From: an uncultured Bacteroidales bacterium
Lineage (GTDB): Bacteria; Bacteroidota; Bacteroidia; Bacteroidales; F082
NCBI GenBank assembly: GCA_946408345.1
Contig: CAMJRR010000010.1
Coordinates: forward strand, 1-64,000
Direction: 5' to 3'
DNA: 64,000 bases
Shown piece by piece: positions 46,280-54,986 of the stretch; position 1 is the stretch's first letter; each line of letters begins with the position of its first letter. A program made the translations under genes and the position numbers. The notes beneath the pieces are model-generated. The model was not told where the DNA came from. It searched no databases and was given only the letters and a program-made list of their open reading frames with translations.

Positions 46280-47587
46280 TTATCTGTATTTGCGCTTCAT
46301 GAACCAATGCTCAAACACTGAAATGCCTACATTCATCTTGGCATAGCGTTCTTGTATCAAACCGCCTTCACGGGTACCATATTGTCCTATTTCAAAGGAC
46401 ACATTGACCTTCGACGGAGTCTTAGGTAGCGGCAACGACATTCCAGCCGTGGCACCTACCTTATTAATACTATGTTCCATGCCATCGTTTCCAGGCAGGC
46501 TGATGAAACCATGTTCATAGAATCCGCCGAAACGATAGGTAACACGTGAAAAATATCCCGAAACGGAAGTATGTCTTGGCGTGAATTCAGCTCCTGCCGA
46601 CACCGACCACGAGTTCTGAAGGGCATCGGTGACGCCCTCACGGGCAAATTTCGACCATTGCATCCAGTTGAAATCGGCGCCCACCGTCCAATCGCTACCT
46701 TTTTGCAAAGCCACACCCACACCAAAGCCTTGAGGCATGGTGATACGAGTTGGACCGGAAATATGTGCAACCGTATCGATGACATATTCTATTTCAGTAT
46801 CCATATCTTCCTCAATGGACCGGATAAACAAAGTCTGATCAGCTTTCAACTTGACTTTCTGAGTGTACGTGAGGCCGACACTTAAATCCATATCGTCACC
46901 CACATTCGTGTTGAAAAGCATACCATAATCGAACATGAAAGAGCTAACCATCACGTCGACACTACGCCTTGAACCGATATAGTAAATCGAGTCGGGAAAA
47001 TAGAGCGAGGTCTCGGTCTGTGTGTTACCAAAAACATAGTAAACATTGGCACCCACAGCAAAATGCTTGCCCAATTTGAAGGCGTTGCCAATAAAGGCCT
47101 GATTGAGTCCACCTTTGCCTTGGAAACGTGTGGTTGTATTACCCACTTCAGGAATTTCCTTGTCGATCTTCATAGTGTATCCTGTGGTACTATAAGGTTG
47201 CACGCCAAGTGCCACTTTCCACCATGGTGCCAGGCCAAAAGCCATCGAAACGTAGTCGAAAGAAGCGTTGTTGGCACGCTCAGAGAGACTCGCCGTACTG
47301 AAAGCGGAGGTCTTGAAATAAAAACCAGCATCAAAAAGGAAGGCCAATGAATCAATTTTGGCGTATGAAGCAGGATTTTCAGCATTAATCATACCGCCTC
47401 CAAACATGGCATTGGCCGCACCACCCATACCTTTCAGCCTGACATTCATCGACTTGTCACGCACTTGACCTACTCCAAACAAAGAATAGGGCGAGTCGGC
47501 ATCAGCTTGAGCCATGGTATCGAAGCTGAAACAAGCCAGCAGGCATATCAGCCAAATGTTTTTCAGAAAATGTGTTCTCATAACCAT
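46280..47587 (-). CDS. Outer-membrane beta-barrel protein
   Basis: A 435-residue protein with a signal peptide (ICLLACFSFDTMAQ) and a long series of amphipathic strands, for example YVSMAFGLAPWWKVALGVQP, FAVGANVYYVFGNTQTETSL and MDLSVGLTYTQKVKLKADQT. A start of the form SPYSLFGVGQVRDKSMNVRL, then GMGGAA, is common to a Bacteroidales outer-membrane family with FadL/PorV-like character. No ligand can be assigned. It is the first gene of the unit ending in lptC and the CNNM gene; the 74-base gap to the TPR gene shows no terminator. Confidence 0.85.
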   Translation of the reverse strand: MVMRTHFLKNIWLICLLACFSFDTMAQADADSPYSLFGVGQVRDKSMNVRLKGMGGAANAMFGGGMINAENPASYAKIDSLAFLFDAGFYFKTSAFSTASLSERANNASFDYVSMAFGLAPWWKVALGVQPYSTTGYTMKIDKEIPEVGNTTTRFQGKGGLNQAFIGNAFKLGKHFAVGANVYYVFGNTQTETSLYFPDSIYYIGSRRSVDVMVSSFMFDYGMLFNTNVGDDMDLSVGLTYTQKVKLKADQTLFIRSIEEDMDTEIEYVIDTVAHISGPTRITMPQGFGVGVALQKGSDWTVGADFNWMQWSKFAREGVTDALQNSWSVSAGAEFTPRHTSVSGYFSRVTYRFGGFYEHGFISLPGNDGMEHSINKVGATAGMSLPLPKTPSKVNVSFEIGQYGTREGGLIQERYAKMNVGISVFEHWFMKRKYR

Positions 47588-48121: not shown

Positions 48122-49117
48122 TTAATAGTTAGCAAGATTGAATCCGTAATGCTTAATCACATTAGGAGCAACTTGGTGGTTGCGATCTGACATGTCAATC
48201 GTCTTAGTGCTACCATCAGCAAACGTAATGTCGATGGTGTAACCATGAGTAAGAGCCAAAGGACGCAGCACCATGTAGAAATGAGTGCAAGTAGCTTGAG
48301 TAGTACCAATCTGCACACCTTCCTCAGGCATGGTTAAAGTGAGAGTGTTACCTTTTTCAGTCACATTGTAACCCACTCTATTAAGGTACTGAGCCAATGA
48401 CTGCATATAGGCAGTGTTGTTGGGGTCATAATTGTTGAAGAGGCTCTGCATTTCGACAGGATCGACTTCGGGGATGATCAACTCAATCCAACCAGAGAGA
48501 TCAAAGCTGTTGTCAGTAATCTTGATTTCCTTGACGACAGTAGGACCATTGGGATCGAACATCATCATGTCATAAACACCGCAAATGTTTCTGAAGAAGA
48601 AAGCAGTTTCGGGTGTTTCGGTTTGGGCCAAATGCTCAACATTGTCAACCTTGGCAGCCATATACATAGCTCCCAACGGAACTCTGTCGGCACGATACTC
48701 TTGAGTAGGGGCAACATAGAACTGGCATTTATTTTCACCACCAGCCATTTCCGTATGAATGTTATTAGCGCCACCAGGATAGAAAGCATAATAAGCATCC
48801 AAAATGTCTTCAGCAACCTCACCAGTTCCACAATTCTCAAATCTAACATAATTGCCTTCTTGAACTGCAGCATACTGGGCGCAATGGCTATGAGTAGGAA
48901 CCTCGTTGTCAATGTTGAAAATCATGACTACGTCACCTTGTTCAAACATGACTTTGAGATTACCAGGAGCATAATAAGCTCTGTTCTCATCCACATTTTC
49001 TTCGACAAGCTCTTGGGTCTTTATCGTCAAAGCACTCTTTTGTTCTTGTTTTTTGCATGAGGTGAATGCTAATGCCACCAATGCAATCATGCAAAAGCAT
49101 CTAATTACTCTTTTCAT
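48122..49117 (-). CDS. Lipoprotein, fimbrillin-like
   Basis: A 331-residue lipoprotein: signal CFCMIALVALAFTSC with Cys21 as the lipidation site. The mature part is beta-rich with segments seen in fimbrillin or Mfa2-like proteins of the phylum: a first domain with GDVVMIFNIDNEVPTHSHCA and AYYAFYPGGANN, a middle with FFFRNICGVYDMMMFDPNGP and TVVKEIKITDNSFDLSGWIE, and a last strand region (HGYTIDITFADGSTKTIDMS). I cannot place it in a precise family. It starts 51 bases after the 42-residue peptide gene with no terminator between, so the two are probably co-transcribed from the element at 49372-49379. Confidence 0.7.
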   Translation of the reverse strand: MKRVIRCFCMIALVALAFTSCKKQEQKSALTIKTQELVEENVDENRAYYAPGNLKVMFEQGDVVMIFNIDNEVPTHSHCAQYAAVQEGNYVRFENCGTGEVAEDILDAYYAFYPGGANNIHTEMAGGENKCQFYVAPTQEYRADRVPLGAMYMAAKVDNVEHLAQTETPETAFFFRNICGVYDMMMFDPNGPTVVKEIKITDNSFDLSGWIELIIPEVDPVEMQSLFNNYDPNNTAYMQSLAQYLNRVGYNVTEKGNTLTLTMPEEGVQIGTTQATCTHFYMVLRPLALTHGYTIDITFADGSTKTIDMSDRNHQVAPNVIKHYGFNLANY

Positions 49118-49168: not shown

Positions 49169-49297
49169 TTAAGGATTCCAAGTGGTTCCACCTTCAATTC
49201 CAGAACCAGCAGTTCCACCCGCCATGAAATCCTTGTTCACATCGAGATTGATCAATTCAGCCTTTGGAGCTTCGTACATTTTGTTCATCTTTTTCAT
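49169..49297 (-). CDS. 42-residue peptide, candidate RiPP precursor
   Basis: A complete small reading frame. It begins MKKMNKMYEAPKAELINLDV, continues NKDFMAGGTAGSG, and ends IEGGTTWNP before TAA. The first 26 residues are charged and helix-prone, leader-like. The rest is rich in Gly and Thr, with two Gly-Gly sites (residues 27-28 and 36-37) and the end TTWNP, so a leader plus core layout is plausible. It has its own promoter element 75 bases upstream. Upstream on the same strand lie PqqD/RRE, S24/S26 peptidase, nucleotidyltransferase and HPr-kinase-like genes. That it is a precursor is inference; short proteins with a YxAPKAE-like start next to lipoprotein genes also occur in this phylum without known function. 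An alternative start is Met4. Confidence 0.7.
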   Translation of the reverse strand: MKKMNKMYEAPKAELINLDVNKDFMAGGTAGSGIEGGTTWNP

Positions 49298-49371
49298 TTT
49301 GTTTAGTTTTTAATTTGACTTATTGTTGTTAATTAATTGTTTCGTGCTTCCTTTTCACACTTTTGACGCTG

Positions 49372-49379
49372 CAAAAATA
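49372..49379 (-). promoter_or_regulatory. TAttTTTG promoter element of the peptide and lipoprotein genes
   Basis: A minus-strand -7 element in the gap after the nucleotidyltransferase stop. It lets the peptide gene be expressed separately and more strongly than the modification genes. Confidence 0.6.
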
Positions 49380-49409
49380 AATAATTAATTCATACGGAGA
49401 GAAAAAAAA

Positions 49410-50516
49410 TCACTTTTTTTGAATTTTTTTTCCAAAGCCCTTCTTCAAAGCAGTGTTCATCTCACGAAAAGCTTGGCCGGGAAAGAGGGCTGACAATTGG
49501 AAGAAATTGACAAAAATGCCTATAAAGGAATGCAATTTTTTCATACTTGTCCGTTTTGGCCTGTTGCGTTTGAAGCGGTTGGGGCGAAGGAAATTGCCTT
49601 CCGCCATAACCCGAGAGAAAAGTTTATGGGCACGACGCCTGCATGACGGTTCATAAAAAGGCATTTCGGCCTTAGGTAAGCCAAGATTCTCTACCAAAAG
49701 ATAGCCAAAAGTTTGCCACGGCTTCAACAAATGCATAGAAGTTATCCATTGGTACAACTTATCGGTATCGAGCTGATCATGATAGGCATGAAGTGTTATT
49801 GCCAAATCGGAAAGCTGTCTCCAACCCACACCCGTAGTCAGGAAATGATGCCAAGCATGGAAGAAAGTGTAAAAAACCATAAACTCCTTAGAAGGAATTG
49901 CCAATTTGAGACCTTCGAAATCGACATGCTGGGCTTTTTCATGCAGACCTTCACGTTCAATAGTTTCATAAACAGCCAATTCCTTATATCCTGACAAATC
50001 GGCACTAACACGGTGTATTTCCATGGGATAATGACCAAACTCAATATTATAGTGCCTGCCTGAATCCACTTCTTCCTCCCAATTGTAGCCACCGGGAATT
50101 GTGCGCAGAAGCTTACATGCCTCATGGAAGTCGTTGAGACCCACATAGAGGTCAATATCTCCGAATTGTCGTAAATTAGGATTGGGGTAAAGCATGGCCA
50201 AACTAAAACCCTTAAGCAATACTGGATCGATGTTGCGTGCTTGCAATAGCTTCACTGCCGAAACCAAAATGCGTTTCAACTGCATCTGGTTGATCAAGTT
50301 GAAGCGCATAGCCGATTGCATCTCGCCAAGCATGGAGTCAGACGGACGATCGTTTCCCTTTATCTGAGAGGCTACATCGCTCAACAGCACATTTGTCGCA
50401 TGATGTTTGGCAAGCCGCATGACAGCATCCCAATCCACCTCCCCTTCAATGACAGTAGGGGTGCCCCATAAAGCGGAACGCATCAAAGCAAAATACTGTG
50501 ACTCGGGATTTGTCAT
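49410..50516 (-). CDS. Nucleotidyltransferase-family protein (RiPP-cluster type)
   Basis: A 368-residue soluble protein of the NTP_transf_5 group. The catalytic-type core is ARNIDPVLLKGFSLAMLYPN, then LRQFGDIDLYVGLNDF, with Asp120 and Asp122 as the likely metal ligands. The later part is helical (FMVFYTFFHAWHHFLTTGVG). The basic C-terminal tail (FKRNRPKRTSMKK ... GFGKKIQKK) might bind a membrane or nucleic acid. In lasso-peptide clusters of the paeninodin type, proteins of this family sit beside an HPr-kinase-like peptide kinase. The gene follows the PqqD gene by 13 bases. The substrate is unknown. Confidence 0.82.
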   Translation of the reverse strand: MTNPESQYFALMRSALWGTPTVIEGEVDWDAVMRLAKHHATNVLLSDVASQIKGNDRPSDSMLGEMQSAMRFNLINQMQLKRILVSAVKLLQARNIDPVLLKGFSLAMLYPNPNLRQFGDIDLYVGLNDFHEACKLLRTIPGGYNWEEEVDSGRHYNIEFGHYPMEIHRVSADLSGYKELAVYETIEREGLHEKAQHVDFEGLKLAIPSKEFMVFYTFFHAWHHFLTTGVGWRQLSDLAITLHAYHDQLDTDKLYQWITSMHLLKPWQTFGYLLVENLGLPKAEMPFYEPSCRRRAHKLFSRVMAEGNFLRPNRFKRNRPKRTSMKKLHSFIGIFVNFFQLSALFPGQAFREMNTALKKGFGKKIQKK

Positions 50517-50529
50517 TTATTATACCTTA

Positions 50530-50799
50530 TTAATTAATAATCATGTCAGTCTCTTTCCAAGTTTGCAACAAAGCTGCCACGTCTTTCTCAGCCACATCGC
50601 GGGTAATACCATACTCATCTAAAAGAAGCTCTACTAAAGTTTCTGCTTCAAAATCCTTATCTTCAACCGATTTCCAAAGGAAAGCAGCCGATTCATTCAA
50701 CGAAATCATGCGGCTGAAATCAACCGCATCAAGTCCTTCAGCAACAAGAACAAACTCTTTGCCTAAAGAACGAAGTATGTAACCTTTTCTTGTCTTCAT
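50530..50799 (-). CDS. PqqD-family RiPP recognition element protein
   Basis: An 89-residue stand-alone PqqD-like protein: strands KTRKGYILRSLGKEFVLVAE, then AVDFSRMISLNESAAFLWKS, then helices TLVELLLDEYGITRDVAEKD, and the end VAALLQTWKETDMIIN. PqqD-type folds (RRE) bind leader peptides and bring them to modifying enzymes. It starts 1 base after the S24/S26 peptidase stop, and no PqqE-type radical SAM gene is near. Its presence makes ribosomal-peptide modification the best reading of the cluster. Confidence 0.88.
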   Translation of the reverse strand: MKTRKGYILRSLGKEFVLVAEGLDAVDFSRMISLNESAAFLWKSVEDKDFEAETLVELLLDEYGITRDVAEKDVAALLQTWKETDMIIN

Positions 50800-50800
50800 A

Positions 50801-51244
50801 TCAATATTGTTTACTTGTTAATTTAATCCATTTCCTATATATCTTCAGCATATATTTCCTTAGAAACAAAGTATGTCTCCATAGCCACGCTTTCCGAGGT
50901 TTATGCTGGCGATCATCAGGTGTTATGATTTCAACCACCTTACCAACCACATCATTGCGCTTCCCATGTTCGACATCATTCAGATTGCCATCGCCCATCA
51001 AAGTGAACTCTTCTCCATTAATGGCCACAATCCGATGCAAAACATATCGTTTCTCAAAATATGCCAACACAATATCACCCACACTTAATTTGTCAGTCTT
51101 CCTCAATTTAATGCGATCAACTTCCCCGCGTATGAAAGGAAGCATACTTCTACCTTTCGGGGTCATCACCACTTCGCGACCTTCACCAAGCAACCGTGCG
51201 ACTTCACCCAAAAGCACCTCATTCGGTAAGACTACTTTCTCCAT
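50801..51244 (-). CDS. S24/S26-family peptidase-like protein
   Basis: A 147-residue protein, MEKVVLPNEVLLGEVARLL onward. The serine-peptidase core is VVMTPKGRSMLPFIRGEVDR (SMLP, nucleophile Ser) and LSVGDIVLAYFEKRYVLHRI (His in place of the usual Lys, as in SipW or archaeal signal peptidases), then INGEEFTLMGDGNLNDVEHG. No membrane anchor is visible. Such genes are frequent in RiPP-like clusters of this phylum and could cleave a leader. The ATG at 51244 overlaps the end of the HPr-kinase-like gene by 26 bases; a longer frame (from 51289) is less likely because it overlaps more. Confidence 0.82.
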   Translation of the reverse strand: MEKVVLPNEVLLGEVARLLGEGREVVMTPKGRSMLPFIRGEVDRIKLRKTDKLSVGDIVLAYFEKRYVLHRIVAINGEEFTLMGDGNLNDVEHGKRNDVVGKVVEIITPDDRQHKPRKAWLWRHTLFLRKYMLKIYRKWIKLTSKQY

Positions 51245-52115
51245 GATGCTGTGTAACTGTATTATAACATAAGAAAGCGGCCTTATCATTAGGCAGACAA
51301 TCCAACGAATAACACGGCACCAAGTTGATTATCTTCACAATGGCAGTATGAAGTCCATCAGCCATTTCTTTGATAAACCGCAAACCCGAACAAGAAACAT
51401 ACATCGAAGCATAAGCCTGAGTCATCAGCTGTTGATGTATTTCATTTGTTTTGGCCTGATGCAAATCAACGATGGCACCCACAGGATAGTCTAAATTGCG
51501 GTAACAAGGTGTCTTACCACTCCAAGGAGAGCCATAAACCCGAATTTCACCATTGGGATCAACTCGAAGTACTGGATTATCGTCATTTAGCAATTCACAA
51601 CCTTCTATATTATTAATCCACAATTGACTATGCGTACTTTTTCCTGTACCACTCTTGCCCAAAAACAAATAGCCCTTACCATCCTTTACAGTAACTGATG
51701 AATGCATCAATAAGGTATCTTTTTTAGCAGTAACAAAAGCATACATCACCATAATCACAGTATTGATTGTGAACCTTAAACTCCCTAGAACACGAAATTC
51801 GGTCTCGGAAAAAGACTTATCAGCAATCATATACAAACGAATAGGAGCTTCCAACATAGGAGCAATCTCCATCAACCATTTCCCTTCCCATTCGTAAATA
51901 TCATAACGAGGCATGTCAGGAGAAGTGCAACACACTGTCACCTTCTGTTTTTGGGAAGTATCAGGCATTGAATCAATCATCCTAGCAGTAAAAACCAAAT
52001 TACTGTCATCTTCCACCTCAAAAGCCTCATAAGGCTTCATCTCACTCCAGGCGACATCGTTGTCAGGCATAACCACGGCAAATTTGTGACCCGCAACTTT
52101 ATACACTTTCTTCAT
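51219..52115 (-). CDS. HPr-kinase/PEPCK-like ATP-binding protein
   Basis: A 298-residue protein beginning MKKVYKVAGHKFAVVMPDND. The P-loop is in GKGYLFLGKSGTGKSTHSQL (about residues 153-160), followed by the acidic pair in CELLNDDNPVLRVDPNGEIR and then GSPWSGKTPCYRNLDYPVGA. This is the HprK C-terminal/PEPCK fold; no HPr-like partner is nearby. Relatives in lasso-peptide clusters phosphorylate the precursor peptide. The ATG at 52115 is chosen because the longer frame (from 52238) would cross the promoter element at 52132-52139. It is the first gene of the unit HprK-like, S24/S26, PqqD, nucleotidyltransferase. Confidence 0.86.
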   Translation of the reverse strand: MKKVYKVAGHKFAVVMPDNDVAWSEMKPYEAFEVEDDSNLVFTARMIDSMPDTSQKQKVTVCCTSPDMPRYDIYEWEGKWLMEIAPMLEAPIRLYMIADKSFSETEFRVLGSLRFTINTVIMVMYAFVTAKKDTLLMHSSVTVKDGKGYLFLGKSGTGKSTHSQLWINNIEGCELLNDDNPVLRVDPNGEIRVYGSPWSGKTPCYRNLDYPVGAIVDLHQAKTNEIHQQLMTQAYASMYVSCSGLRFIKEMADGLHTAIVKIINLVPCYSLDCLPNDKAAFLCYNTVTQHHGESSLTE

Positions 52116-52219: not shown

Positions 52220-52242
52220 CCCGTTTTTTGAAGAACAATACG

Positions 52243-53910
52243 ATGAAAAGAAAGAAAGAAAATAATAATGCGACCCTTAGACACGATCAGGGATCGCGAC
52301 TTCGTAATATCATACTAGCCTTATTGACTGGTGGTTTGCTCACAGCTGCATGGCCCACTTGGGGTATTGCATCGCTGATTTTCATAGGGTTAGTTCCGTT
52401 ATTGTTGATCGAAAACCGTATTGCACAAGGCAAAAATGACAGAATGTTTTGGCTCTCGTTTCTAGCCTTCTTTGTTTGGAATGTGGCCACAACGTGGTGG
52501 GTGTGGAACGCCACTCCTGCCGCCATATTAGCATGGATACTGAACGCGCTTTTCATGACCATCGTATTCCAAGTGTTTCACCTCACGAAAAAGAAAGTGT
52601 GCAACAACCCGTGGGGTAACTTCTTCCTCATCCCCTATTGGATGGCTTTTGAGTTGCTCACTTACTGGTGGTCCATCAAATGGCCATGGTTGAACCTTGG
52701 TCATGCCTTTTCCACTCAACACGAATGGATTCAATGGTACGAATACACAGGTGTGGCTGGTGGAACACTTTGGATTCTACTTGTCAATATATTGATTACC
52801 AATATAATCCTATACTTTAAATCAAAAGAAACAAAGCCACTTCTTATTAGTATTGGTGCCGAGGTGGCGATAATCCTCGTGCCCATTCTTATCAGCACGC
52901 GTATCTACAAACATTACGAAGACCAAGGCGTTGACACGGAAGTTGTCGTTGTTCAACAGAACTGCGACCCTTGGAACGAGCAGTTCGACAGCCAATTCTA
53001 CGACCAGGTCATCCAAAACAACATTAATCTTTCATTGCCATTGGTAACTCCCAACACGCGGTTTGTCGTGAGTAGTGAATCAGCCATTCAAGAAGGCATC
53101 TGGCTGCAAGAGGTCGACAAAGTAAAGGCTGTCAATACATTGCGCGACTATGTCAAGAGATTTCCGCAGTTGGCATTCGTCATCGGCGGTACCACCTACG
53201 AGTGGGTGCCCAAAGGTATGGAAGATGATTTTCCAGCACGAGAAGCGGGACTTAATCGCTATTATTATTGCCACAATTCCGCCCTGCTCATCGACACAGT
53301 CCGCATGCAACATCGCAATAAATCGCAACTTACGCCAGCGGTGGAGGCTATCCCCGAATGGATGGGCTTTTTGAAGAACTATAGCCTTACCATGGGCATT
53401 GCACGTGGTACCCTAAAAACCGACCCCGAATCGAAAGTGATGGAATTTAGCGGACATAAAGTGGCTGTGCCCATCTGTTATGAATCAGCCTTTGGCGAAT
53501 ACGTCAGTTCGTTCTGCAAGAAAGGTGCCGACTTGCTCTTTGTCATCACAAACGACGGCTGGTGGGGCGATACACCAGGCTATAAGCAGCATTTCGAGTT
53601 CTCCAAGTTGAGAGCTATTGAGAATCGCCGTTGCGTTGCACGTTCAACCAACACAGGTCGCTCAGGATTCTTCAACCAGCGGGGCGATGTGCTGCAACAA
53701 ACCCAGTATTGGGTACCTGATGCTATTCGCGCTACACTGAAAGCCAACACGAAAGTGACCTTCTATGCCAAACACGGTGACTACCTCAGTCGAATTGCTG
53801 TTTATCTCACTTTTGTGCTACTCATCACATGGGGAGCTATGAGCCTCATCCGATGGAACCGGTCTGGTGAGAGAACTACCAAGAAAGCCAACAAGCGCAA
53901 AAAGAAATGA
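52243..53910 (+). CDS. lnt: Apolipoprotein N-acyltransferase
   Basis: Lnt adds the third acyl chain to the N-terminal Cys of lipoproteins. The protein is 555 residues: about six membrane segments in the N-terminal half (LLTAAWPTWGIASLIFIGLV, AILAWILNALFMTIVFQVFH and others), then a periplasmic nitrilase domain. The catalytic residues of the family are visible: Glu in VVSSESAIQEGIWL, Lys in RGTLKTDPESKVM and Cys in VAVPICYESAFGEYVSSF, followed by TNDGWWGDTPGYKQH. A final membrane segment precedes a very basic tail. The dus gene overlaps by 4 bases. The many lipoproteins in the window are its likely substrates. Confidence 0.95.
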   Translation: MKRKKENNNATLRHDQGSRLRNIILALLTGGLLTAAWPTWGIASLIFIGLVPLLLIENRIAQGKNDRMFWLSFLAFFVWNVATTWWVWNATPAAILAWILNALFMTIVFQVFHLTKKKVCNNPWGNFFLIPYWMAFELLTYWWSIKWPWLNLGHAFSTQHEWIQWYEYTGVAGGTLWILLVNILITNIILYFKSKETKPLLISIGAEVAIILVPILISTRIYKHYEDQGVDTEVVVVQQNCDPWNEQFDSQFYDQVIQNNINLSLPLVTPNTRFVVSSESAIQEGIWLQEVDKVKAVNTLRDYVKRFPQLAFVIGGTTYEWVPKGMEDDFPAREAGLNRYYYCHNSALLIDTVRMQHRNKSQLTPAVEAIPEWMGFLKNYSLTMGIARGTLKTDPESKVMEFSGHKVAVPICYESAFGEYVSSFCKKGADLLFVITNDGWWGDTPGYKQHFEFSKLRAIENRRCVARSTNTGRSGFFNQRGDVLQQTQYWVPDAIRATLKANTKVTFYAKHGDYLSRIAVYLTFVLLITWGAMSLIRWNRSGERTTKKANKRKKK

Positions 53911-54986
53911 GCAGCCCGTTGCTTTCTTTAGGACCTTTCCAAGGCATCACGGATGCACCTTTCCGCAACGTGTTCAAGCGACACTTTGGTGGTATTGACA
54001 AGTTCTATACGCCATTTTTCACGGGAATACATAAAGAGGACCACGCCAAGAACCTTCAAGGCGAGGAAATCGACCCAAAATACAATGATGTGGAGACATT
54101 GACTCCTCAAATTCTCAGCACTGATGCTGAGGAGATTCTGCGCTTTGCCAAGCAGTGCAAGCAGTTGGGTTATACGGAGATTAATCTCAACATGGGCTGC
54201 CCGTTCCCAAGAGTGGCCAACAAAAAAAGAGGCTGTGGTCTCCTGCCCTATCCCGACAAGGTGGAAGCCATGCTAGAGCGGGTTTTTGAAGAGATTGACA
54301 TCAAATTCAGCGTAAAATGCCGTTTGGGGTACTTCAATCCAGATGAAATCGATTCTATTATTCCGATTTTTAACAAGTTTCCTTTGAGCGAATTAATCAT
54401 CCACCCACGCATTGGGAAGCAACTTTACAAAGGTGAAGCTGATGCGGAACGATTTAAGGCATTAATACCTCAGATTAATGCACCCTTGGTGTACAATGGG
54501 GATATTGTTTCGGTGGAAAGTTTTATAAGGATTAATGGTATTCTGAATGACGGTCCTTCGACAGGCTCAGGAACCTGCAAAACTGTTGAGCAGTTCATGT
54601 TAGGACGGGGGCTTTTGGCGAATCCGTTTTTGGCGGAGGATATCAAAGCCTCCGTCATTGCGAGGCCTCATTCCGTGAAAACGGAAAACGACGAAGCGAT
54701 CCAGGAAAGCGTCTCCCTAGATTGTTTCGTTCCTCGCAATGACGCGAAGCGTGTGTCAAAAAAGGCCGAACGACTACACAACTACGTTATAGACCTGTAC
54801 AAGGACCGTCTGCACCATGCAGGAGGTAGCCCTAAGGTATTGGGCAGAATGAAGGAATTATGGTCCTACCTGATGAACAGCTTCGAGGAACCGCAAGTTG
54901 TGTGGCGGAAAATCAAGAAGATTAATGCATTGAAGGAATACGAAGATGCTGTTGAGACCATCTTCAAAGAGATAGCCATCAAATGA
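53907..54986 (+). CDS. tRNA-dihydrouridine synthase with two in-frame element insertions
   Basis: A 359-residue FMN enzyme that reduces uridine to dihydrouridine in tRNA D-loops. Family blocks are LGPFQGITDAPFRNVFKRHF, INLNMGCPFPRVANKKRGCG (catalytic Cys in CPFP), FSVKCRLGYFNPDEID, LIIHPRIGKQLYKGEADAER, PLVYNGDIVS and FMLGRGLLANPFL. Two stretches are foreign to the family. The peptide GPSTGSGT (residues 216-223) comes from palindromic element B. Residues of about 249-283 (SVIARPHSVKTENDEAIQES ... LDCFVPRNDAKRV) come from element A. Both keep the frame, so a full-length product is expected. Which Dus subfamily it belongs to is not clear. Stop of lnt and start here overlap. Confidence 0.92.
   Translation: MSSPLLSLGPFQGITDAPFRNVFKRHFGGIDKFYTPFFTGIHKEDHAKNLQGEEIDPKYNDVETLTPQILSTDAEEILRFAKQCKQLGYTEINLNMGCPFPRVANKKRGCGLLPYPDKVEAMLERVFEEIDIKFSVKCRLGYFNPDEIDSIIPIFNKFPLSELIIHPRIGKQLYKGEADAERFKALIPQINAPLVYNGDIVSVESFIRINGILNDGPSTGSGTCKTVEQFMLGRGLLANPFLAEDIKASVIARPHSVKTENDEAIQESVSLDCFVPRNDAKRVSKKAERLHNYVIDLYKDRLHHAGGSPKVLGRMKELWSYLMNSFEEPQVVWRKIKKINALKEYEDAVETIFKEIAIK
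54552..54575 (+). repeat. Palindromic element B half, in frame in the dus gene
   Basis: A 24-base tract (GGTCCTTCGACAGGCTCAGG, then AACC) identical to 58479-58502. It replaces or adds eight codons (GPSTGSGT) in a surface loop before the FMLGRG motif. Confidence 0.85.
54652..54753. repeat. Palindromic element A, copy 2, in frame in the dus gene
   Basis: Outer arms CGTCATTGCGAGG (54653-54665) and CCTCGCAATGACG, then CGAAGCGTGT. It shares with the hemW copy both arms, the ATTG(C/T)TTCGT inner arm and the right flank AAGCGTGT. It also has an inner hairpin CCGT gaaa ACGG. It is 102 bases, an exact number of codons. Confidence 0.85.

Follow-up and report, generated by a model that had tools for sequence, protein, structure and literature searches.

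The closest described relatives of the gene cassette studied here are the linear polyphosphorylated peptides (LPP), ribosomally synthesised and post-translationally modified peptides (RiPPs) encoded by the lpp cluster of Paenibacillus alginolyticus (Nat Commun, May 2026; PMC13381572). According to that paper, LPP leaders carry the motif YxxPxVLxHQxIxFETxxS, the peptide LppA is polyphosphorylated at Ser3 of its core, which by the motif lies 18 residues after the Tyr (Y+18), and the protease LppS, with the triad S29/H68/D93, cuts the leader with the help of a RiPP recognition element (RRE) (PMC13381572). Its authors describe the LPP as restricted to Bacillota, and their role and final product as unknown (PMC13381572). 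Here we report on a cassette of four enzyme genes, followed by genes for a 42-residue peptide and a lipoprotein, in a stretch of 64,000 nucleotides from an uncultured Bacteroidales bacterium (assembly GCA_946408345.1, contig CAMJRR010000010.1, positions 1 to 64,000 of the forward strand), referred to below as the window.

We conclude, with a probability of roughly 0.77, that this cassette represents the LPP machinery in a Bacteroidota version, with one precursor peptide encoded next to it and several others dispersed over the genome. The original prediction for this locus, made from the DNA sequence, had suggested a new modification type. This suggestion had to be given up, because LPP with the same enzymes were already published in May 2026 (PMC13381572). 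What appears to be new is the occurrence in Bacteroidales, the dispersal of the precursors and their pairing with lipoproteins of a fimbrillin-like fold.

Comparison with described systems

In common with LPP clusters, the Bacteroidales cassette comprises an HprK-like kinase, an S26 protease resembling signal peptidase I with Ser, His and Asp as catalytic residues, a discrete RRE and an NTP transferase, and it includes no cyclase-like gene. The peptides share the YxxP leader, variable cores and, in the majority of copies, a Ser close to Y+18/19, and an MsbA-like ATP-binding cassette (ABC) transporter as in LPP clusters is encoded in some Bacteroidales cassettes, among them two of the genus (L028 and L078). 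Differences from LPP are the Bacteroidales host, precursors dispersed over the genome and each located beside a fimbrillin-fold lipoprotein, and a chromosomal site flanked by Lnt and an outer-membrane protein gene rather than in a capsule locus. Furthermore, the Bacteroidales Ser is found at Y+19 rather than at Y+18 as in LppA, the window's own peptide has no such Ser, the leader lacks the VLxHQxIxFET segment, and the cassette of the window contains no exporter gene, as the original prediction had already recognised. Thus, four of the five enzyme types that define LPP clusters are present in the window and the MsbA-like transporter is absent. By analogy, the cassette probably works like LPP and belongs to LPP in the broad sense, while strict membership is left open by the lack of the exporter and of the full leader motif.

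The lasso peptide clusters of paeninodin and pseudomycoidin (PadeK, PsmK, PsmN) likewise contain a kinase with a His-Lys-Asp-Asp motif, an NTP_transf enzyme and a discrete RRE (PMC9266682, PMC8498205). The original prediction had pointed to this combination of HprK and nucleotidyltransferase, correctly so, as the pair is that of phosphorylated peptides. The locus differs from paeninodin clusters in its YxxP leader in place of WxxP, in the S26 leader peptidase and in having no conserved C-terminal Ser. The lasso B2 protease family PF13471 was without a match in all 99 genomes of the genus sample, and no macrolactam cyclase gene was seen between Lnt and the outer-membrane protein gene by inspection, a genome-wide search not having been made. 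The original prediction had already listed both among the missing genes. A lasso origin was rejected because of the missing B2 match.

Organisation of the cassette and its enzymes

The HprK-like kinase (LppK/PadeK-like; 51219..52115, minus strand, 298 amino acids) contains the P-loop GKSGTGKST and the His-Lys-Asp-Asp motif published for lasso-tailoring kinases (PMC9266682, PMC8498205). Among its homologues, His, Lys and the second Asp were found in 65 of 65 sequences and the first Asp in 64 of 65. Comparison with NCBIfam yielded weak matches to ScmC (E value 3.3e-7; 29.9 of 125 bits) and HprK_rel_A (E value 2.1e-4; 20.5 of 200 bits), both below the curated cut-offs. The SynChlorMet (ScmC, TIGR04249) and HPr-rel-A (TIGR04352) systems resemble our locus in possessing an HprK-related protein, from which the present kinase is set apart by scores far below the cut-offs. 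Their cassettes presumably also include PqqD-type partners. As all scores for HPr-rel-A, ScmC, GeoRSP and lasso PqqD were far below cut-off, these known NCBIfam systems were rejected as candidates.

The second gene encodes a soluble protease of the S26 (signal peptidase I-like) type (50801..51289, minus strand, 162-residue open reading frame (ORF)), with an alternative start at 51244 (147 residues) that is used by most relatives. Its S24/S26 assignment rests on a weak match to the archaeal-type signal peptidase I family TIGR02228 (5.6e-7, below cut-off), and the residues Ser48, His85 and Asp100 were each retained in 60 of 60 homologues. No membrane segment was seen in this protein (highest 19-residue hydropathy 0.86), and none of the enzymes has a signal-peptide-like stretch, in contrast to the lipoprotein with its lipobox.

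The PqqD family protein (50530..50799, minus strand, 89 residues; PF05402, 6.4e-16) showed a sequence match in the PDB to TfuB1 (6jx3_B, E value 0.004). Its structural model (predicted local distance difference test score, pLDDT, 87) matched best the lasso B1 RREs TbiB1 and TfuB1 (6jx3) with a template modelling (TM) score of about 0.72, and both of these structures were solved with bound leader peptides. By this model the protein looks like a leader-binding RRE of the lasso B1 kind, in agreement with the role in leader binding originally assigned to it. The NTP_transf_5 enzyme (LppN/PsmN-like; 49410..50516, minus strand, 368 residues; PF14907, 5.5e-41) carries Lys102-Gly103 and Asp120-x-Asp122, four residues that occur in 47 of 47 homologues.

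All five genes listed by the original prediction are real minus-strand ORFs, of which the four enzyme genes form a tight run: the kinase gene overlaps the S26 gene with either start of the latter, one base separates S26 from PqqD and 13 bases separate PqqD from the NTP_transf_5 gene. The precursor-like peptide gene (49169..49297, minus strand, 42 residues; YxxP leader with Y8 and P11) does not belong to this tight run, since it follows the NTP_transf_5 gene only after 112 bases. The earlier gene list had also omitted the gene which goes with the peptide, namely the partner lipoprotein gene located 51 bases beyond it (48122..49117, minus strand, 331 residues, lipobox ...FTSC-21, predicted fimbrillin/adhesin-like fold). 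A promoter-like element TAnnTTTG (TATTTTTG, 49372..49379, minus strand) lies 82 nucleotides (nt) upstream of the peptide start. All 30 cassette peptides tested have this element 73–97 nt ahead of their ATG, where single-base shuffles gave a mean of 2.0 and a maximum of 6. Of the peptides located elsewhere in the genomes, 28 of 61 have it in the 160 nt before their start, compared with a shuffle mean of 5.2. We take it to be the Bacteroidota -7 element. With this element in front of it, the peptide-lipoprotein pair looks like a transcription unit of its own beside the enzyme operon. The flanks of the cassette (46280-47587 and 52228-54986) are occupied by Lnt/Dus and the outer-membrane protein gene, which mark a fixed chromosomal site.

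Joint inheritance of enzymes and peptide in the genus

Homologues of the S26 protease were found in 37 of the 99 genus genomes, and HprK and PqqD were encoded at all 37 loci and the NTP transferase at 34. The order HprK-S26-PqqD-NTP was observed in 32 of the 34 NTP-bearing loci, and in each of these 32 a YxxP peptide gene came next (30 detected by script, L080 and L072 by eye; the L072 contig ends nine codons into the peptide). The search for this gene order and a following peptide, proposed together with the original prediction, thus had a positive outcome, and cassettes of this order without the peptide did not turn up among the 32. The two other loci (L028, L078) have the order NTP-HprK-S26-PqqD-ABC and no adjacent peptide. 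Three diverged PqqD-HprK-S26 trios (L029, 5981-7561; L030, 6188-7798; L083, 6338-7915) are situated beside a conserved gene of 338-351 codons.

A peptide profile (A1) built from 30 cassette peptides matched 34 of the 99 genomes (E≤0.1), exactly the 34 which have all four enzymes. As A1 was built from cassette peptides, its cassette matches are not independent evidence; the dispersed copies and the absence from the other 65 genomes are independent of how it was made. In total, 97 matches were obtained, 31 in cassettes and 66 elsewhere. Three of the latter were left out (G152:C197, G155:C85, G146:C40) and two were dropped as long frames (L182, L187), so that 61 small peptides, located in 58 of 60 loci, make up the dispersed set. 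Dispersed copies occurred in 25 of the 34 cassette-positive genomes and in none of the 65 others; the number is 25 because eight genomes have a single match only and the extra match of G146 lies in a frame of 441 residues. A peptide without the enzymes was not found in the genus.

The site beside Lnt was compared in 41 genomes, its other side being formed by the outer-membrane protein gene where the contig reaches that far. Here, 32 genomes carry the block together with the lipoprotein, three the lipoprotein alone (L249-L251) and six neither (L282-L287); the contig of L249 ends just past the lipoprotein, leaving only the Lnt side visible. Enzymes without peptide, or peptide without enzymes, occurred in none of the 41 genomes. 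On an Lnt tree of these genomes (quick search, supported by the Shimodaira–Hasegawa-like approximate likelihood ratio test only), the block requires at least four gains or losses, at least two of which are forced by well-supported branches.

Leader and core of the peptides

The leader residues M1, K2, Y8, A10, P11, A13 and E14 are invariant in the 30 cassette peptides, and YxxP is present in all 31 complete ones, followed by variable cores. Hence, the conserved feature is a YxAPxAE leader and not the Gly richness by which the peptide had originally been described. Inspected by eye, the leader shows an alternating, beta-strand-like pattern. The peptides had no match above a cut-off in Pfam or NCBIfam, and when the window was scanned by pattern for additional YxxP peptides, only the known one was convincing.

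Of the dispersed copies, 58 of 61 have a Ser at Y+19, as do 14 of the 31 cassette copies. The 120 database peptides listed, the best of 400, all have it too, but this figure is not independent because they were retrieved with a profile of these same peptides. Two residues before this Ser, a Cys (LCAS/LCSS) is present in 52 of 61 dispersed copies and all 120 listed database members and in none of the 31 cassette copies; this Cys may be involved in an additional modification. In the genome of the window, both dispersed peptides (L152, L167) look canonical. As the window's own peptide is without a Ser at Y+19, it may be a non-phosphorylated or regulatory client. The original proposal that the 42-residue peptide is the substrate was therefore upheld in part: the peptide is a constant, co-inherited partner of the enzymes, but only one of several clients, most of which are encoded elsewhere in the genome, and it lacks the conserved Ser.

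Pairing of peptides with a lipoprotein family

Directly downstream of 59 of the 61 dispersed and 30 of 30 tested cassette peptides we identified a lipoprotein of one family, whereas the same profile (A4) matched only 8 of 231 other neighbouring genes in the dispersed loci. In this count an ORF had to start between 120 nt (cassettes: 150 nt) before and 450 nt after the peptide stop. The count is partly circular, because the family was first seen as peptide neighbours and A4 was built from such neighbours; with a stricter lipobox requirement the pairing holds for 47 of 61 dispersed peptides.

Profile A4 matched 4k4k, a solved Bacteroides cell-adhesion protein, with an E value of 5.8e-7. Modelling of the lipoprotein in the window (pLDDT 85) gave matches to Bacteroides adhesion proteins and Mfa3 with E values down to 4e-8, at TM scores of only 0.3-0.5. 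Both profile and model thus indicate an all-beta fimbrillin-like fold similar to the fimbrillin/Mfa-like adhesins of Bacteroides and Porphyromonas (4k4k, 3t2l, Mfa3 5nf4). Unlike those adhesins, most members match no Pfam family (weak N-terminal PG1828 matches; PF13149 weakly in 1 of 18 members), the TM scores are low and the gene lies beside a YxxP peptide gene. Family members are about 270 to 1200 residues long and often carry added modules. At five loci of cassette-negative genomes (L249-L253) a lipoprotein of this family occurs without a peptide, so it can stand alone; among these are frames of 1286 residues (L252, 5788-9648) and 499 residues (L253, 6772-8271).

Two loci showed unusual arrangements. 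At L163 (G121:C43, 3768-9050), far from the cassette, the gene order is lipoprotein-NTP-ABC-peptide-lipoprotein; here, NTP stands for a second NTP_transf_5 enzyme, the ABC transporter is MsbA-like, the peptide is of the YxxP type and one lipoprotein has 706 residues. At L225 (1501-2610, genome G415), a YxxP peptide-like N-terminus is joined in a single frame of 369 residues to a lipoprotein-like signal and body, representing either a natural fusion or an assembly artefact.

Distribution across the order and in databases

In an order-wide sample of 393 genomes, the HprK profile matched 56 (E≤1e-10), and all of the best-scoring 28 of these 56 loci have, in varied orders, at least one of the S26, PqqD, NTP or ABC genes within flanks of roughly 1.5 kb, an ABC transporter being present at 10 of the 28. 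A peptide profile built from the genus only (A3) matched 16 of the 393 genomes (E≤0.01), 15 of which have an HprK homologue; the exception, G462, is 89% complete and belongs to a genus with HprK-positive members. For the broader profile A5, 28 of 31 matches (E≤1e-3) and 35 of 47 (E≤0.05) came from genomes with HprK, a co-occurrence which is partly circular because A5 was partly seeded with peptides of HprK-positive genomes. Fisher values calculated in this work take no account of common ancestry.

In families f90 and f91 the peptide gene forms part of PqqD-peptide-HprK-S26 clusters (L268, L275), in family f20 it adjoins HprK (L261), and in the f30 genomes G408 and G547 weak peptide matches (E values 0.0016 and 0.009) are located less than 1 kb from HprK. 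Several families again have a lipoprotein of the partner family downstream of the peptide; in f111 and some further families the peptide comes after or next to large surface proteins which the lipoprotein profile does not match.

A database search with the HprK homologue of one f60 genome retrieved 7900 proteins at E≤1e-10 (8000 scored), and among the 120 matches listed, those bearing an organism name belong to Prevotella. Among the relatives found, 14 have names; these are all uncultured Bacteroidales or Bacteroidia, and several titles mention deer rumen or gut. The RUG names among them presumably denote rumen genomes. In the listed sources, the small Bacteroidales ORFs for which we offer a reading are mostly unnamed or hypothetical.

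No Bacteroidales version of LPP was seen in the literature covered, which comprised open-licence PMC papers and no preprints. The main text of the LPP paper does not contain the string 'bacteroid' and describes the network of LPP peptidases as mostly from Bacillota (PMC13381572). As this means mostly and not only, Bacteroidota members may already be listed in its supplement. In the main text of a survey of Bacteroidales RiPPs, neither 'nucleotidyltransferase' nor 'HPr kinase' occurs (PMC10352776).

Discussion

By analogy with the published Bacillota system, the following route can be proposed. The leader with its YxxP motif would dock as a beta strand onto the PqqD protein. The kinase would transfer phosphate, possibly more than once, to the conserved Ser some 19 residues downstream of the Tyr, and the NTP_transf_5 enzyme would add a nucleotidyl or sugar group to the phosphate. 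The S26-like protease, with the leader presented by the RRE, would then cut two residues ahead of the Ser (GVL/CAS in the dispersed copies), a position placed in analogy to LPP. This would release a linear core of about 14-36 residues, which in dispersed copies would usually end near Trp or Phe. The core would finally be exported and act with the fimbrillin-fold surface lipoprotein encoded beside each precursor, as the pairing of the genes suggests.

Several observations weigh against a Bacteroidota version of LPP. In the window's peptide, Y+19 is a Gly and the range from Y+18 to Y+21 contains no Ser; 12 of the 31 cassette copies have no Ser in this range, and LppK is reported to be unable to use Thr or Tyr in place of Ser (PMC13381572). 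The same paper describes no visible effect of LppN even in the published system (PMC13381572). To this are added the absence of the VLxHQxIxFET segment from these peptides and of an MsbA-like exporter from the window's cassette; the ABC type of L028 was found in only 4 of 99 genus genomes (E≤1e-80). The trios L029, L030 and L083 have no NTP transferase and no detected peptide and are possibly a related system with another client. Across the order, 21 of the 56 HprK-positive genomes gave no peptide at E≤0.05 even with A5, and G409, G460 and G462 have a peptide match (E≤1e-3) without HprK.

Among the other explanations, the most serious is that the peptides are structural or assembly partners of the lipoproteins, acting by strand donation, plugging or tethering, and that the enzymes prepare them for this role, with no diffusible product. 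We regard it as a considerable possibility, with the odds somewhat against it. The downstream lipoprotein beside nearly every peptide compared with 8 of 231 control genes, the same pairing in several other families, the adhesion and fimbrial proteins matched by profile and model, and the strand-like leader all fit this idea, which accommodates less easily the five peptide-less lipoproteins of cassette-negative genomes and the surface proteins outside the lipoprotein profile in f111 and some other families. That each pair consists of a secreted toxin or signal and its immunity or receptor protein, matured by one shared cassette per genome, seems unlikely. In favour of such a system are the constant leader with its variable cores, the multiple pairs found in many genomes, the single lipoprotein next to almost every peptide and a patchy distribution that requires at least four changes on the tree; typical immunity lipoproteins, however, are small, whereas these reach from about 270 to 1200 residues, often with added modules, and some stand without peptides.

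The enzymes could instead act on the lipoprotein, with the peptide as a guide or a passive small ORF. The nearly constant adjacency of the two genes and the missing Ser of the window's peptide speak for this arrangement, but three genomes keep the lipoprotein without the peptide or any of the four enzymes, the enzymes have no signal-peptide-like stretch while the lipoprotein has a lipobox, and it is the peptides that carry the RRE motif, so that we consider it improbable. Finally, HprK, nucleotidyltransferase and RRE are shared with paeninodin-type clusters, and a degenerate lasso cluster or leftover tailoring genes might be envisaged. This is hardly credible in view of the lack of any match to the B2 family PF13471 in the 99 genus genomes, the intact catalytic residues over many families and an S26 peptidase of the LPP type.

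Given the Bacteroidota LPP-like machinery that we favour, one can speculate that phosphate-bearing linear peptides of Bacteroidales serve fimbrillin-fold surface lipoproteins as dedicated ligands, plugs or tethers, a tentative idea which, taken by itself, we judge rather doubtful. If true, one maturase acting in trans would supply an adhesin-like family encoded across the genome with custom modified peptides, and RiPPs would have a new role as components of surface structures instead of secreted antibiotics. Scattered peptide-lipoprotein pairs with one distant maturase are likely to be missed by searches for single clusters. The pairing gives a family of unknown role its first functional lead and, because it links the precursors with one particular class of surface proteins, makes this role testable.

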